Assembly: GCA_007129355.1 (NCBI GenBank)
Contig: SKVR01000179.1
Span: forward strand, 1 to 42,156
DNA: 42,156 nt
Direction: 5' to 3'
Source: Bacteroidales bacterium
GTDB taxonomy: Bacteria > Bacteroidota > Bacteroidia > Bacteroidales > UBA7960
Each line of letters begins with the position of its first letter. Position 1 is the first letter of the stretch. Made by a program: the position numbers and the translations under genes. Under the pieces are notes generated by a model. It did not search any database and was not told the origin of the DNA. It saw only the letters and a program-made list of their open reading frames with translations. Of the stretch, positions 18,110 to 42,027 are shown piece by piece.

Positions 18110-19066
18110 ATGAGCTGGAAAGATTATTTTTATTTTACAAAAACGGAGAGAAATGGGATTGTTGTGCTGGTGATTTTAATTATTATAATAATTCTGTTAC
18201 CCCTTTTTTACCCCTTGCTTTTTCCGGCAAGAGTTTACGATTTTAGCGAGTTTGACAGGAAAGTTGACCGTTATGAACAGATGCTTGCAGAATACCGCGA
18301 AGCCAGAATAGCTATTGATGCAAGCTATGAGAGAGAAGCCAGCAGCAGAATTTCGCTTACTCTAAATCTTTTCCCATTTGACCCCAATAACCTTACCAGG
18401 GAAGAATTTCTGGAGATAGGAATACCCGAAAGGGTAGCCGGCAATATTGTTAACTACAGAAATGCTGGGGGTAGCTTCAGATTCAGGGAGGACCTGAAAC
18501 GAATCTACAGCATCAACGACGACTTATATTACAAGCTGGAAAATTATATAGAGCTGCCCTCTCGAGAAGAACAAGCAACCATCAGGAGTGAAGAACGACA
18601 GGCACGTCAATTTGCATCTGATACCACAAGAAGAGCTACCTTTCAGCCTGTCTGGGCAGATGTAATCATTGATATCAACCGGTCTGACAGCACTGAGTGG
18701 CAGAAAATAAGGGGAATCGGACCTGTATTTAGCAGAAGAATTACATCATACCGCGATTTGTTGGGCGGTTTTTATTCCACATCACAATTGATGGAAGTAT
18801 TCGGGATGGATTCAACACGTTTTGAACAGATACAACCACACATACATTTAGGTGACAGCCTGGAGCTAAAACGGATAAATATAAACTCATCCGATTTTGC
18901 AACTCTCATTCGCCATCCGTACCTTGATCGCAATCATGTAAATTCCATTTTACGCATGCGAGACAGGCACGGAAATTATAATTCAACTGATGAGATCCTT
19001 CGCTCAGAGTTGATAGATGAAGTACTTTATCAGAAAATAGCACCTTATCTAATGGTTTCCGATTGA
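18110..19066 (+). CDS. Membrane-anchored ComEA-like helix-hairpin-helix protein
   Basis: N-terminal TM followed by several HHH units (IDINRSDSTEWQKIRGIGPVFSRRITSYRDLLGGF; ININSSDFATLIRHPYLDRNHVNSILRMRDRHG). Confidence 0.88.
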   Translation: MSWKDYFYFTKTERNGIVVLVILIIIIILLPLFYPLLFPARVYDFSEFDRKVDRYEQMLAEYREARIAIDASYEREASSRISLTLNLFPFDPNNLTREEFLEIGIPERVAGNIVNYRNAGGSFRFREDLKRIYSINDDLYYKLENYIELPSREEQATIRSEERQARQFASDTTRRATFQPVWADVIIDINRSDSTEWQKIRGIGPVFSRRITSYRDLLGGFYSTSQLMEVFGMDSTRFEQIQPHIHLGDSLELKRININSSDFATLIRHPYLDRNHVNSILRMRDRHGNYNSTDEILRSELIDEVLYQKIAPYLMVSD

Positions 19067-34452: not shown

Positions 34453-35610
34453 CTAACTTTTCACCTTCAATATATCTTTCACTTTCATTGCATTTTCTTT
34501 GGCCTTTTCCAGGGAATCAGCTGTTATTGTAACGTGTCCCATTTTCCGGTAAGGCCTGGTTTCAGTTTTTCCGTAAAGGTGCATATAAGCCCCTTCGATC
34601 GCAAGCATTTTATCTGCTCCCTCATAGAACACAGGCCCTGTGAAATTTTCTTCGCCTGTAAGGTTTACCATTACAGCAGGTCGTACAAGTTTCGTATTGC
34701 CCAAAGGAAATCCAAGTATCGCACGTAAATGTTGTTCAAACTGAGATGTAACGCATGCTTCAATGGTAAGGTGACCACTGTTGTGCACCCTGGGGGCACA
34801 TTCATTTACCCATATCTCACCTTTTTTTGTTACAAACATTTCCACGGCAAGTAAACCCACAATCTGCAACTTCTCTACAAGAGACCGGGCAATAACATCT
34901 GCCGCATCAAGATATTCAGGAGATAGATCGGCCGGGCAAAATACATACTCCACAAGATTTGCAACGGGATGAAATGCCATTTCAACAGGTGGAAAAACCC
35001 GGATCTCACCGGCTTCATTACGGGCTGCTACTATGGCAATTTCATGCTCTATGGCAGCGAGCTCTTCTACCAACCCCGGCACATCCGGAATACTTTCAAT
35101 ATCAGACTTTGACCTGACGATGATCACTCCCCGGCCGTCATACCCGCCAACAGCTGCTTTCCAAACAAAGGGCATTTGGGTTGATTTCTTCTCCATCCTG
35201 CGGAGCATCTCAGCTTTATTCTTAAACCCAAACCATGGTGCCGTGGGAACCTTATGATCCTGGTAAAACTGCTTCTGGTCTGTCTTATTTTTGATAAGTT
35301 CAACGATCTCAGGCTGTGGAAATACTTTCTTTCCCATGGCCTGCAGGTCTTTCATAGCCTGAGTGTTCACATTTTCTATTTCAATGGTAATGACATCGCA
35401 ATCCTGACCGAACTGCATAACTGTATCATAATCATTGAAGCTGCCCTGAACAAATTCCTTGCTTCCCACCGAGCAGGGTGCATCAGCAGATGGATCAAGA
35501 ACTTTTGTGTATAGATCATAGCGACGGGCAACATCGAGCAACATTTTTCCCAGCTGACCCCCACCGAGAATTCCTATCTTTTTATCTTTTGATGAAAAGT
35601 AATTTTCCAT
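34453..35610 (-). CDS. purK: N5-carboxyaminoimidazole ribonucleotide synthase
   Basis: KIGILGGGQLGKMLLDVARRYDL; WKAAVGGYDGRGV; ECAPRVHNSGHLTIEACVTSQFEQHLRAILG. Confidence 0.97.
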   Translation of the reverse strand: MENYFSSKDKKIGILGGGQLGKMLLDVARRYDLYTKVLDPSADAPCSVGSKEFVQGSFNDYDTVMQFGQDCDVITIEIENVNTQAMKDLQAMGKKVFPQPEIVELIKNKTDQKQFYQDHKVPTAPWFGFKNKAEMLRRMEKKSTQMPFVWKAAVGGYDGRGVIIVRSKSDIESIPDVPGLVEELAAIEHEIAIVAARNEAGEIRVFPPVEMAFHPVANLVEYVFCPADLSPEYLDAADVIARSLVEKLQIVGLLAVEMFVTKKGEIWVNECAPRVHNSGHLTIEACVTSQFEQHLRAILGFPLGNTKLVRPAVMVNLTGEENFTGPVFYEGADKMLAIEGAYMHLYGKTETRPYRKMGHVTITADSLEKAKENAMKVKDILKVKS

Positions 35611-35803: not shown

Positions 35804-36739
35804 ATGATTAAGAGAAAAACCCATACTGGTGAAATAAAGGAATCAGTATTTTCTTCTGAACTAACTGCTGATCCTGAGCCCCGTGTTGCAAAACTGAGTG
35901 GTATTAAACTTTTTTTTCTTGCCATGGTTTTTATGGGTCAGTTGGCCGGCAGCCCGGCACAAACTCCCGATCGTATTGCCCTTACATACCACAAGCAGCT
36001 GGTAAGGGTGTTTGAATACCGCGACTCATTGGAGGGAGTTCATCCCTTTGTAAAAGGCCTTTACCCCATTGCCATTGCAGAAGACGGCTATTTCTATGTT
36101 TTTGACCTGGATAGTTCAAAAACCCAATACCGTATCATGGCCTATGAAGAAATTGAGATGAAGGTGCCCCGGGGCATCCGGGCAGCTTTTCCTCTACAGT
36201 TTTATGATAACAAATGTACATGTGTGGTAACCGGCGATGTATTTGATACTCCTGAAGGCTATATAATGATTTTTCATGAGTTTATTCACTGCCATCAATG
36301 GAATACCGTTGAACCCGGTTTACGCAGAGAATTACCCCTGGCAGTAAAATCGCTTGAGGCTGGTAATTATATGTGGGAAATTGAGCATCCTTTCCCCTAC
36401 CATGACAAATGGTTTGTAAAAACTTATAACGCTTTCCTTGAGGCAGCAAATAATTATGACGATGAGAAAGTAGCTGAAATGCGGGCCGAACTTGCATCTA
36501 TTCTTAACGAAGACGATTATCAGTATATGGTTTGGCAGGAATGGAAGGAAGGATTTGCACTTTCGCTGGAAAATAAAATGCGGAAACATTTAAATTTACC
36601 TGAGAACAAGGTAGGCAGACAGCAACCCTTCAGCCGAACCGTATTTTATGCAGGTGGTTCAGCATATATTGAATATCTGACCAAGAAAAATCCCGAGTTA
36701 CTTACCGATCTGGAAGCCCTGTTCTACAATATGTATTAA
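35804..36739 (+). CDS. Uncharacterised secreted protein with HExxH motif (putative gluzincin-like metallopeptidase)
   Basis: Internal hydrophobic signal-like segment; MIFHEFIHCHQW (HEFIH) followed downstream by EWKEGFALSLE. Confidence 0.55.
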   Translation: MIKRKTHTGEIKESVFSSELTADPEPRVAKLSGIKLFFLAMVFMGQLAGSPAQTPDRIALTYHKQLVRVFEYRDSLEGVHPFVKGLYPIAIAEDGYFYVFDLDSSKTQYRIMAYEEIEMKVPRGIRAAFPLQFYDNKCTCVVTGDVFDTPEGYIMIFHEFIHCHQWNTVEPGLRRELPLAVKSLEAGNYMWEIEHPFPYHDKWFVKTYNAFLEAANNYDDEKVAEMRAELASILNEDDYQYMVWQEWKEGFALSLENKMRKHLNLPENKVGRQQPFSRTVFYAGGSAYIEYLTKKNPELLTDLEALFYNMY

Positions 36740-36763
36740 AGAAATTATATTTAATTCCAGCCC

Positions 36764-37582
36764 ATGAAGCATACTTTACTACTGACTACTGCCCTGCTGA
36801 TTTTATCTTCCGTTACATGGGCAGCAAACGACAATTATCCTTTTGGCGGACGGGCTGCCGGTATGGGCAACGCAGCCGTTACTTTATACGACTTCTGGGC
36901 TATCAGTCATAACCAGGCCGGCCTGGCCCGAATGCAAAATATGGCTGCCGGGGTTTATTTTGAAAACCGTTTTCTAATACAGGAACTAAGTTTCGGGGCG
37001 GGCGCTATTGTATACCCCACAGAATCAGGTGTTCTGGGTTTTAACTTTACCTATTTCGGATTTGAGTTATACAATGAAAGCAAGGTCGGACTTGCTTATG
37101 CCCGTGAGTTTGGCGAACGCTTTTCTGCAGGTGTGCAGCTCAACTACCATAACACAAATATAGCTGAAGATTATGGCAATAAAGGAAACCTGACCTTTGA
37201 GCTGGGTGCCATATTTCATATTCTTCCGGAACTCAGCTTTGGGGTGCATCTTTTTAATCCCACCCGCGCAAAAATTGCAGACTTTGCCGATGAAAGAATT
37301 CCCACCATATTCCGAACCGGACTCTCTTATGAGTTTTCTGACAGGGTAATTGTGGTGGTTGAAACCGAAAAAAGTGTAAACCTGAATCCTGTTTTCCGCA
37401 CCGGCATTGAATATCGTATTTCCGATCCTTTATATATAAGAGGTGGTATAGGCACCAATCCAACCACCAATGCTTTTGGTTTTGGACTGGAACTGGGAAA
37501 CCTGAATATTGATGTTGCCACATCATTCCATCACGTTTTGGGTTATTCACCGCAACTGAGTTTTATTTATAACTTTAAATAG
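36764..37582 (+). CDS. UPF0164/PorV-like outer-membrane beta-barrel protein
   Basis: Signal peptide; GGRAAGMGNAAVTLYDFWAISHNQAGLA motif typical of this family; alternating beta strands to the C-terminus. Confidence 0.75.
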   Translation: MKHTLLLTTALLILSSVTWAANDNYPFGGRAAGMGNAAVTLYDFWAISHNQAGLARMQNMAAGVYFENRFLIQELSFGAGAIVYPTESGVLGFNFTYFGFELYNESKVGLAYAREFGERFSAGVQLNYHNTNIAEDYGNKGNLTFELGAIFHILPELSFGVHLFNPTRAKIADFADERIPTIFRTGLSYEFSDRVIVVVETEKSVNLNPVFRTGIEYRISDPLYIRGGIGTNPTTNAFGFGLELGNLNIDVATSFHHVLGYSPQLSFIYNFK

Positions 37583-37593
37583 TAAAACTTACT

Positions 37594-39735
37594 ATGCAGA
37601 TGGTGACTATTAAATATTTCTTACCAGGGTTTCTCTCACCACTATTGTTTATCGGGTTTTTTCTTCTGCCCAATCTCTTATACAGTCAGCAAGAAGAAAC
37701 TCCTCCATCTTTACAGCCACCGGAACAGATCGTTGAAGATGATGACTTTCATCAAAGAGTTGAAAGCCTGATCGAAGAAAGTGATGAAGAAATTGATGCC
37801 ACTGAACTGATTGAAGAACTGGAATTGCTAAGACAACGCCCCCTTAATCTCAACGCTGCAAGTGCCGATGATTTGCGAAGGATTTTCTTCCTGAATGATA
37901 TCCAGATCAATAACCTGATCGAACACCGTAACCGCTTCGGAAACCTTTTAAGTATGTTGGAATTGCAGGCCATTGACGGGTTTGATCTGGAAACCATCAG
38001 GCAAATACAGCCCTTTGTTACAGTAAGCGAAATTGTGGAAAGACGCCGTTTTAACATCAGCGATATCCTCGAACGTGGCAACAGCCAGTACTTTCTTCGC
38101 TATCAGCAACTTTTTCAAGAGCAAAGAGGCTTCTCGCCTATTGATCCGGAAGAACTTGAAGCAAACCCAAACGCACGCTACCTCGGAAGTCCTTACCGGT
38201 TATATTCACGATACCGGTTTTCCTGGTACAATAATCTGAGCATAGGAGTGACAGCCGAAAAGGATCCCGGAGAGGAATTCTTCAGGGGTAGCCAGCCTTA
38301 TGGTTTCGACTTTTACTCGGCCCACTTTTACCTGCGCGATGCCGGTCGCATAAAATCATTGGCACTGGGTGATTACCAGGTGCAATTCGGGCAGGGTCTG
38401 ACTCTCTGGTCGGGACTTGCTTTCGGAAAAAGCAGCGAGGCTGTTAATGTGAAGAAAAACGGTTTGGGTCTGCGCCCATATACTTCGGTAGATGAGAATA
38501 ATTATATGCGGGGTGCAGCAACCACCGTTACTCTGGGAAATTTTGAATTCACAGGCTTTTACTCAAGCAAAGGACGCGATGCCAATGTCATTGAGTTTGA
38601 TACCATAATGCAGGAAGCTCTTGTTATTACCAGCCTGCAGCAAACCGGGCTTCACCGCACCCCGCGTGAATTGGAGAACAAAAACGCAGTTCAGGAAACA
38701 TTCATGGGATCAAATATTACTTATCGAAGGTCAAATTTCCATGTGGGCATCACCGGTTATTACATGGAACTGGGCGCAGAGTTTCGCAGAAATCTTTCTT
38801 TCTATAATCAATTTGACTTTAACGACCGAACCAATTGGGCAACAGGTGTCGATTATAATTACATCGTACGCAATTTTAACATTTTTGGTGAAGCAGCAAC
38901 CAGCCAGAACGGTGGTTACGCTTTTTTGAATGGGGTAATGATGAGTCTGGATCCCAGGTTATCCATGAGTATTCTGCATCGAAGGTTCAGTAAAGACTAC
39001 CAGTCGTTGCTCAGCGTAGCTTTTTCTGAAAATACGCGGGTTGTGAATGAAAATGGATTGTATCTGGGTTTGAATGCACGCTTTTCGCGGGCCTGGACAC
39101 TCAATGCCTATGCCGATCATTTCTCCTTTCCCTGGATGAAGTTCCGCACCTATGCCCCCTCCGGAGGATATGACTACCTGGTGCAACTAAACTACCGCCC
39201 CGAGCGCAGAATAGAAATGTATGCCCGCTACCGCATCAAAAACAAGCCTCTAAACTCACCCGATGAGAATATTATCCGTTATCTGGATGATGTGAAAAGG
39301 CAGAATATCAGATTGCATGCCAGCTATCCCGTAAGTCCTTCCTTTACTTTTCGTAACCGGGTTGAGCTGATATTTTTTGAGCATGGTTCAAAAAAACAAA
39401 CAGGTTATTTAATTTACCAGGATATCGGGTACCGAAGCTTTGCCAGCCCCTGGGCCATAACCGCAAGGTATGCCATTTTTGACACAGATGGTTTTGATGC
39501 AAGGATTTATGCCTATGAAAATGACGTTCTGTATGCATTTTCTTTCCCTTTTTATTCAGATAAAGGACACAGGGCTTATATTGTTGCCAGATATCGGGTA
39601 AACAGGAATATTGACCTGCAGGCACGTCTTGCACAAACCGTTTACACCAACAGAAACCAGATAGGAAGCGGACTTGATTTGATTGAGGGAAACGCACGAA
39701 CAGAAATTAAAGCACAGATGCGTTTAAGGTTTTAG
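37594..39735 (+). CDS. Helix-hairpin-helix domain outer-membrane barrel-like protein
   Basis: Signal peptide; RPLNLNAASADDLRRIFFLNDIQINNLIEHRNRFGNLLSMLEL (ComEA-like HHH); then ~500 aa of beta-barrel-like sequence ending in an aromatic residue (MRLRF). Confidence 0.82.
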   Translation: MQMVTIKYFLPGFLSPLLFIGFFLLPNLLYSQQEETPPSLQPPEQIVEDDDFHQRVESLIEESDEEIDATELIEELELLRQRPLNLNAASADDLRRIFFLNDIQINNLIEHRNRFGNLLSMLELQAIDGFDLETIRQIQPFVTVSEIVERRRFNISDILERGNSQYFLRYQQLFQEQRGFSPIDPEELEANPNARYLGSPYRLYSRYRFSWYNNLSIGVTAEKDPGEEFFRGSQPYGFDFYSAHFYLRDAGRIKSLALGDYQVQFGQGLTLWSGLAFGKSSEAVNVKKNGLGLRPYTSVDENNYMRGAATTVTLGNFEFTGFYSSKGRDANVIEFDTIMQEALVITSLQQTGLHRTPRELENKNAVQETFMGSNITYRRSNFHVGITGYYMELGAEFRRNLSFYNQFDFNDRTNWATGVDYNYIVRNFNIFGEAATSQNGGYAFLNGVMMSLDPRLSMSILHRRFSKDYQSLLSVAFSENTRVVNENGLYLGLNARFSRAWTLNAYADHFSFPWMKFRTYAPSGGYDYLVQLNYRPERRIEMYARYRIKNKPLNSPDENIIRYLDDVKRQNIRLHASYPVSPSFTFRNRVELIFFEHGSKKQTGYLIYQDIGYRSFASPWAITARYAIFDTDGFDARIYAYENDVLYAFSFPFYSDKGHRAYIVARYRVNRNIDLQARLAQTVYTNRNQIGSGLDLIEGNARTEIKAQMRLRF

Positions 39736-39873
39736 TATCATTTTTATTATCTCAATATTTTTTTTACTGAAGTCTGACATTTGCTTTTTTGCATATATTT
39801 GCGCAATTCATTAAGTAATGTTAATAGTTACATCTTTAACTTATTAGTATTCACCAATCAAGCAAAAAAACAT

Positions 39874-42027
39874 ATGAAAAACGGTCAACCCAGGGCATTA
39901 TACACCCTGTTTTTCACAGAAATGTGGGAAAGATTTAGTTACTATGGTATGCGGGCATTATTGATTTTATATATGACCCGGCAGATTTTATACGGAGATA
40001 GCCAGGCATATGGTATTTACGCCGCCTACGGAGCATTGGTTTATGCTACTCCATTTATCGGGGGTATCATTGCCGATCAGATACTTGGATACAGGAAGGG
40101 AATCATCCTGGGTGCAATATTTATGGCTATAGGACACTTTCTTATGGCAATTGAATCAAGTACATTCTTTTATGGTGCCCTTGCATTTCTTATAATTGGG
40201 AACGGTTTTTTTAAACCTAATATCTCATCCATGGTAGGAGGACTTTATAAGCCAGGTGATCCCAGGCGTGATGGAGGATTTACCATATTCTATATGGGTA
40301 TCAATCTTGGTGCATTTTTGGCACCTCTTGCTTGCGGACTACTTGGTGAGCTCCTTGGATGGCATTATGGATTTGGCCTGGCTGGGATAGGAATGGTATT
40401 AGGATTGATTGTTTTCTTAAAAGGTCAGCACCGATTTGAACCAACAAATGGTGCACCTCCCAACCCTGAATTACTTTCAAAAATTATATTCCCCGGTATT
40501 AACAGAGAAAGGTTAATTTATATAGCAGCAGCAATAGTAACACCACTCATAGGACTGCTGGTTTACAATTATCACCTTATGGCATTTATTCTTACACCAT
40601 TTGCAGTTGTGGTATTTATTGGTCTTTTGATAATGTCCTTTTCCTTCGAAAAGATTGAAAGGGAGCGTATATGGGTAATTCTAATCCTGGCATTTTTCTC
40701 CATTACGTTTTGGGCATTTTTTGAACAAGCAGGCAGTTCTATCACATTATTCACTGCAAATAATGTAAACCGCGAAATCCTGGGTTTTGTAGTTCCGACT
40801 TCAGTTTTTCAATCTGTTAATCCATTTTATATTATCGTATTTGCCCCCATTTTTGCTGCTCTTTGGGTTGCTCTGGGTAAAAGAAATAAAGAACCCAATA
40901 CAACCATAAAATTTGCGCTCGGTATTATTCAACTGGGACTAGGATTTGGAGTATTTGTTCTGGGTGCCAGCATGGCAGGACCCGATGGAATGGTAGCTTT
41001 GGTATTTTTACTTATGGGATATCTTTTGCATACTACCGGCGAATTATGTATTTCCCCGGTTGGGCTTTCCATGGTTACAAAACTTTCTCCCGCACGAATA
41101 GTATCAATGGTAATGGGAGCCTGGTTCTTATCTTTTGCAATGGCACAACATGTTGGAGGTATCATCGCAAGACTGACATCTACTGCCCAATACATGGAAA
41201 CCGGAATTACCTATGAACCTGAAACAAGTTTCACAGGTAAAGACCATTTTTCTATCAGAACTTATTTTGTAAAGGAAATGGATGGAAGAATTGATACTCT
41301 TAGGTCTGAACCATTAGAAGTAACAATTGATGTATTTGCTGATCAGCCTGAAGTAATTGTGGAAAAACCAGAGATATTTTATATCCACAGAAATGTGAAA
41401 CCAGGTGATCAACTGGCAGTGGATTTAAGAGTTCCCTATCTGGATCCCACAGGCAGATTAACAGAAATTGAAATTGAACCTGTGGCTAATTATGGTGAAG
41501 TACTCATGCAACTGGATACACTGATCTACAAGGCATATGCAGATATAACCCCTTCTGATCATGAAAGCATTATAAACAATTCAGATATTATTACTGATGC
41601 GACTATCATGAGAAAGGATACAATTTTATACACACTGAGAGATATCAGTCGTCCGCAGCTTACAGATGAAGTTGCCCTGGTAATCACAATCTCCGAAGAA
41701 GAATTATTTGCTCCGGTTGTACTGAAAGAATCCATCAATTTTTCAGTTCAGAGATCAACGGCGTTAAGGACTTCATTTAACACCATCAATGTTCTTCATA
41801 ATTTTTACATAGCCAATGGCAAGCCGCTGGGTATTGAGATTGTTGAGGAACCTGCAAATGGTTTTGTTAATACTGGTAGCATGCTTAACCCTTTCGTAGG
41901 ACCCACCAAAACAATACATATCTACTCCAATGTGTTTTATTACCTTTTTCTTATATCATTGGCAGTGGGTGTTGTAGTTTTCCTGATCTCACCTCTCTTA
42001 AAGAAATGGATGCATGGCATTCATTAA
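39874..42027 (+). CDS. POT-family peptide MFS transporter with large C-terminal soluble insertion
   Basis: LYTLFFTEMWERFSYYGMRALLILYMT, NGFFKPNISSMVGGLY, FYMGINLGAFLAPL, FFEQAGSSITLF; ~245 aa hydrophilic segment before the last TM; start adjusted to MKNGQPRAL. Confidence 0.94.
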   Translation: MKNGQPRALYTLFFTEMWERFSYYGMRALLILYMTRQILYGDSQAYGIYAAYGALVYATPFIGGIIADQILGYRKGIILGAIFMAIGHFLMAIESSTFFYGALAFLIIGNGFFKPNISSMVGGLYKPGDPRRDGGFTIFYMGINLGAFLAPLACGLLGELLGWHYGFGLAGIGMVLGLIVFLKGQHRFEPTNGAPPNPELLSKIIFPGINRERLIYIAAAIVTPLIGLLVYNYHLMAFILTPFAVVVFIGLLIMSFSFEKIERERIWVILILAFFSITFWAFFEQAGSSITLFTANNVNREILGFVVPTSVFQSVNPFYIIVFAPIFAALWVALGKRNKEPNTTIKFALGIIQLGLGFGVFVLGASMAGPDGMVALVFLLMGYLLHTTGELCISPVGLSMVTKLSPARIVSMVMGAWFLSFAMAQHVGGIIARLTSTAQYMETGITYEPETSFTGKDHFSIRTYFVKEMDGRIDTLRSEPLEVTIDVFADQPEVIVEKPEIFYIHRNVKPGDQLAVDLRVPYLDPTGRLTEIEIEPVANYGEVLMQLDTLIYKAYADITPSDHESIINNSDIITDATIMRKDTILYTLRDISRPQLTDEVALVITISEEELFAPVVLKESINFSVQRSTALRTSFNTINVLHNFYIANGKPLGIEIVEEPANGFVNTGSMLNPFVGPTKTIHIYSNVFYYLFLISLAVGVVVFLISPLLKKWMHGIH

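Follow-up and report, generated by a model that had tools for sequence, protein, structure and literature searches.

The 42,156-nucleotide contig of a Bacteroidales bacterium that was analyzed here (referred to as the window; contig C320 of fragmented genome G000, which measures 3.1 Mb and is 90.5% complete) carries two adjacent genes, encoding a small PorV-like protein and an HHH-barrel protein, that, we are confident, constitute a conserved two-gene outer-membrane unit. Given its operon with comEC in one family, the loss of the pair from that operon in one genus, the joint absence of barrel and ComEC from another family, the presence of ComEC without a secretin or pilus ATPase in the window's genome, and the HHH_3 domain of the barrel protein, we see an even chance that this pair is an outer-membrane component of a pilus-free route of DNA uptake.

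The gene pair and its neighbors

As the first-pass annotation had stated, three consecutive open reading frames (ORFs) lie on the same strand, separated by gaps of 24 and 11 bp (Table 1). They are preceded, on the opposite strand, by what we take to be a purine-biosynthesis-like gene (34453-35610) and followed by a presumably peptide-transporter-like gene (39781-42027), both names being based solely on a reading of the sequence.

TABLE 1 Features of the window discussed in the text
Feature	Position	Strand	Remarks
Putative HExxH metallopeptidase, secreted/anchored	35804..36739	+	Neighbor, outside the conserved unit
PorV/PorQ/FadL-superfamily small outer-membrane barrel, 272 aa, signal peptide	36764..37582	+	First gene of the pair
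HHH-barrel protein, 713 aa: signal peptide, helical periplasmic region with HHH_3, ~24-strand barrel ending in F	37594..39735	+	Second gene of the pair
HHH_3 (ComEA-like) domain, residues 83-145	37840..38028	+	Hairpin 1 FFLND instead of PGIG, hairpin 2 DGFD
Predicted beta-barrel, residues 163-713, ~24 strands	38080..39732	+	DSSP of AlphaFold2 model
Third extracellular loop, long and conserved (FGQGLTLW...KKNGLGLRPYTS...); may constrict the lumen	38386..38505	+	Conservation 0.492
TM-anchored protein, three HHH_3 domains (canonical RGIGP hairpin in the middle one)	18110..19066	+	PF12836, 9.8e-35

The pair recurs far beyond the window. Homologues of the HHH-barrel protein were present in 39 of 47 genomes of the same family, in 127 of 148 genomes of the order (E ≤ 1e-60, counted from the result table) and in 228 of 297 genomes of the phylum (E ≤ 0.001, some of the weak ones matching in the HHH region only). 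The PorV-like gene was located directly 5' of the barrel gene in every family locus inspected (20/20) and, in a phylum-wide sample of 56 Bacteroidota genomes, in 39, with the remaining 17 carrying a barrel without an upstream PorV-like gene. Two further neighbors were seen repeatedly. A gene for a WD40/PD40 protein of ~1030 aa, with a weak Peptidase_MA_2 match, recurs 3' of the pair within the window's family, where it is encoded on the other strand (L034:2759-5845 and similar loci). Moreover, DUF4835 (porD) lies divergently 5' of the pair in 22 of the 56 phylum genomes (loci L082-L121, e.g., L095:3297-4175), although genomes lacking a type IX system can carry the barrel as well.

The first-pass annotation had extended the unit to the upstream ORF, reading all three genes as one envelope system with a putative peptidase. 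The HExxH motif itself was confirmed (HEFIH), and HEF[IV]H together with a later invariant EG was kept in 11 homologues, which would fit a gluzincin-type zinc peptidase; searches of this protein against Pfam, NCBIfam and the PDB gave no match worth naming. In the window and its closest relatives, the short gaps between these genes on one strand do favor a three-gene system with a dedicated peptidase, but the gene neighborhoods speak against it. The HExxH gene was found in 12 of the 47 family genomes. Only in the closest genus subclade does it adjoin the pair, with the 34453-35610 gene on its other side (G000, G030, one contig of G037, G040 and G036; in G033, the locus is cut by a contig end). 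In six other genomes (G035, G038, G043, G045, G046 and G026), it is located on a separate contig, away from the pair, and most genomes carrying the pair lack it altogether. Since the gene adjoins the pair in the closest subclade only and is elsewhere unlinked or absent, we consider it a recent neighbor rather than a member of the system; the three-gene reading, largely refuted already, was rejected as extremely improbable, and what gene neighborhoods in relatives support is the pair of PorV-like and HHH-barrel genes. As for G037, its contigs C87 and C162 contain two versions of the pair (~82% and ~91% identical to that of the window), of which only one is accompanied by the HExxH gene; with a contamination of 9%, this genome is probably a mixed bin.

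The first protein of the pair had been described as UPF0164-like or PorV-like, of which the latter half held up better. It matched the NCBIfam model of the PorV/PorQ family (NF033709) at 1.1e-14 and 54.8 bits, below the 90-bit cut-off, and 34 of its 39 relatives matched the same model at E ≤ 0.001, so that on its sequence the protein is a relative of the PorV/PorQ family, not a member by that cut-off. UPF0164 membership was rejected because the window protein matched no Pfam family, UPF0164 (PF03687) included; among its relatives, 3/39 did match UPF0164 and 4/39 matched FadL/Toluene_X. PDB sequence searches returned nothing useful for either this protein or the HExxH protein. On inspection, both proteins of the pair start with an apparent signal peptide.

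Predicted architecture of the HHH-barrel protein

The claim that the second protein of the pair joins an HHH region to a long barrel was borne out. HHH_3 (PF12836) was matched at residues 83-143 above the gathering threshold (8.2e-9; 35.9 bits versus a cut-off of 27). In an AlphaFold2 model built on an alignment of 60 relatives (pLDDT 90.4, pTM 0.86), residues 45 to 145 comprise helices and the HHH region, followed from residue 163 to 712 by ~24 long strands, a figure obtained by DSSP of the model with strands grouped by hand. An earlier model, based on 18 close sequences, had been poor (pLDDT 69). Foldseek searches of the PDB returned only distant large barrels, the best being MtrB (6r2q; E 1.1e-11, TM-score 0.37-0.40), and a PDB sequence search with the barrel alignment yielded ComEA/HHH matches only. 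No paper describing this family was found in the open-access literature.

Within the barrel, mean conservation amounted to 0.436 in the strands, 0.428 in the extracellular loops and 0.305 in the periplasmic turns. Surface loops are generally the most variable part of such proteins; that they are here as conserved as the strands suggests that they form a conserved gate or lid. The third extracellular loop, at 40 residues, even exceeds the strand mean in conservation and may sit in the barrel lumen.

The HHH domain had been taken as an argument for DNA binding, and this argument turned out to be weak. The score against the full-length comE model (TIGR01259) was 16.9 bits versus a cut-off of 152, and the canonical GxG DNA-binding hairpins of the ComEA family are lacking (FFLND and DGFD). 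Absence of the DNA-binding hairpin glycines, which the first-pass annotation had named as evidence against its own reading, was found in part: hairpin 1 had its first glycine in 11 of 60 relatives and its second in none, and the corresponding counts for hairpin 2 were 41 and 12. As no relative (0/60) has an intact phosphate-contacting GxG in hairpin 1, while the fold is kept, it is doubtful that the domain binds DNA directly, and docking seems the more likely role.

A more convincing ComEA candidate is encoded elsewhere in the window. The second, TM-anchored HHH protein that had been noted at 18110-19066 indeed contains three HHH_3 stretches, exceeds the cut-off of the ComEA-repeat model TIGR00426, and has homologues adjoining comEC in G083 (contig C47) and G204 (contig C32). 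It is the better ComEA candidate of the two and likely the actual ComEA of this genome, as well as a likely functional partner of the pair.

Linkage to comEC and the proposed role

The link between the pair and DNA uptake was found by comparing the positions of barrel and ComEC within the same genomes, across 297 genomes of the phylum. In family f3, a search of 61 genomes, with 25 genera sampled, produced 30 barrel loci. In 28 of these, comEC lies directly 3' of the barrel gene, mostly touching or overlapping it, and in 27 a PorV-like gene lies 5' of the barrel; the identity of the downstream ComEC was confirmed for the two proteins checked (Pfam Competence, PF03772, 4.7e-54 and 2.5e-57). Moreover, in genus g27 of this family, merR is followed directly by comEC instead of by the pair and comEC, with both flanks intact (L169 and L170 versus L104). 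This is a natural deletion of the pair, in which the two genes were lost as one unit.

ComEC went undetected in 8 of the 297 genomes, 7 of which, all belonging to family f38, also lack the barrel; since related genomes are not independent, this joint absence counts as one or two events. In the eighth, fragmented genome G307, the barrel is present and ComEC undetected. Conversely, families f5 and f6 (e.g., G058 and G067) have kept matches to ComEC, SprA and the HHH protein and have no HHH-barrel, so the barrel cannot be universally needed. A replacement of the pair beside comEC in these two families by genes of the RS04915/RS04920 type was considered and found unsupported: ten comEC neighborhoods contained no pair and, by gene order, no obvious counterpart.

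The operon of barrel and comEC was seen in one family only (f3). A scan of GTDB genomes, mostly metagenome-assembled ones close to the window, covered 80 named relatives, and in none of them did comEC lie within ~5 kb of the pair. The presence of comEC and type IV pilus genes had been proposed as a check: comEC was indeed found in the window's genome, unlinked to the pair, whereas searches of this 90.5% complete genome detected neither a secretin (PF00263) nor a PilB/PilT (T2SSE-type) ATPase (PF00437). As regards the envelope system handling DNA at the outer membrane that had been suggested, the envelope unit stands, and independent context, namely, the comEC operon in f3 and the co-absence in f38, points to a role in DNA handling there; the peptidase falls outside the unit, and the HHH motif makes a weak case for DNA binding.

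How such a system might work can be outlined as follows. The PorV-like and HHH-barrel proteins would form an outer-membrane complex of a competence route that operates without a type IV pilus. The 24-strand barrel could then serve as conduit or gate for incoming DNA, with the conserved extracellular loops acting as lid or gate of its lumen and the PorV-like barrel plugging, stabilizing or gating the large barrel, like PorV on SprA. On the periplasmic side, the degenerate N-terminal HHH domain might dock the ComEA-like receptor (18110-19066) rather than grip DNA itself, after which ComEC, encoded elsewhere in the window's genome, would import single strands. That the barrel is itself the outer-membrane DNA channel we propose only tentatively. 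A similar reserve applies to the complete scheme, a Bacteroidota outer-membrane DNA translocon consisting of a loop-gated, single-chain 24-strand barrel with a PorV-like partner, from which DNA is handed to the ComEA-like receptor and ComEC; it is possible, and we hold it with less than moderate confidence. The main doubts about the DNA-uptake reading are that the operon comes from a single family, that the hairpins are degenerate, and that some families keep ComEC but have no barrel; further points against it are the 17/56 barrels without a PorV-like gene and the porD neighbor in 22/56 genomes.

Alternatively, the pair might be a general outer-membrane transporter or structural outer-membrane protein complex, concerned with protein, glycan or lipid, in which the degenerate HHH domain would be a protein-docking module unrelated to DNA, like other HHH/SAM-like domains whose hairpin glycines have been lost. 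The loss of the hairpin 1 GxG in 60/60 relatives fits this explanation, as do the very wide distribution, more like that of a housekeeping outer-membrane protein, and the generic nature of the large barrels retrieved by Foldseek (MtrB, TonB-dependent receptors, ushers). Against it speak the family-wide comEC operon in f3, the deletion in g27, which removed just these two genes next to comEC, and the absence of the barrel from the ComEC-less family f38; we rate it as rather unlikely. The PorV-family relationship and the divergent porD (DUF4835) neighbor, on the other hand, might suggest an accessory of type IX secretion, with the PorV-like protein as shuttle or plug and the barrel as a second translocon or surface platform. 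However, the barrel occurs without SprA in all listed f18 genomes, in f2 and in G048, while the SprA-rich families f5 and f6 have no barrel, and loss of PorD in Flavobacterium johnsoniae has no detectable effect on the type IX secretion system (PMC10994853). Since the barrel occurs without SprA, this alternative was rejected as the main reading, and we regard it as improbable.

Comparison with known systems

Naturally transformable members of the phylum, such as Porphyromonas gingivalis and Riemerella anatipestifer, have no pilus machinery known for DNA uptake, and how DNA crosses their outer membrane is stated as unknown (PMC11532111, PMC8459023). In R. anatipestifer, in which no pilus homologues were found, transformation needs a three-HHH protein, ComEC, DprA, ComF, RecA and an outer-membrane protein, among others (PMC8459023). 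With two genes only, a distribution throughout the phylum and, in one family, an operon with comEC, the pair is a candidate that brings the outer-membrane crossing of DNA within reach of single deletions. If the proposed role in DNA uptake is correct, the pair would represent an outer-membrane DNA conduit of new architecture that resembles the SprA-PorV translocon and replaces the secretin/pilus machine, and it would have a bearing on how resistance genes spread in a phylum dominant in the gut and the mouth. If not, it is still a very widely conserved ~24-strand barrel without an assigned function.

With ComEA, the HHH-barrel protein shares the HHH_3 fold, the periplasmic side and the link to ComEC; it differs in being fused to a ~24-strand outer-membrane barrel, in lacking the hairpin 1 GxG, and in scoring below the cut-off of TIGR01259. 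The PilQ secretin resembles the barrel in its place in a Gram-negative cell and in the proposed passage of DNA through the outer membrane. PilQ, however, is multimeric, whereas the barrel is a single chain of 24 strands in a genome where neither secretin nor T2SSE ATPase was detected. The SprA-PorV translocon likewise combines a large barrel with a PorV-family protein, but the SprA barrel has 36 strands, compared to the ~24 predicted here, and the HHH-barrel occurs in genomes without a type IX secretion system. MtrB, the 26-strand porin of the Mtr complex, is the closest solved fold according to Foldseek and, similarly, a large barrel with a partner on the periplasmic side; the TM-score of 0.37-0.40, the identity of 8% and the lack of an HHH domain set it apart. 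Finally, the transformation genes RA0C_RS02645 and RA0C_RS04915 of R. anatipestifer provide a pilus-free system of DNA uptake from the same phylum. RS04915 is described as having a carboxypeptidase regulatory-like domain and as confined to Flavobacteriaceae, not as an HHH-barrel, while RA0C_RS02645, essential for transformation, is a three-HHH protein like the one encoded at 18110-19066.
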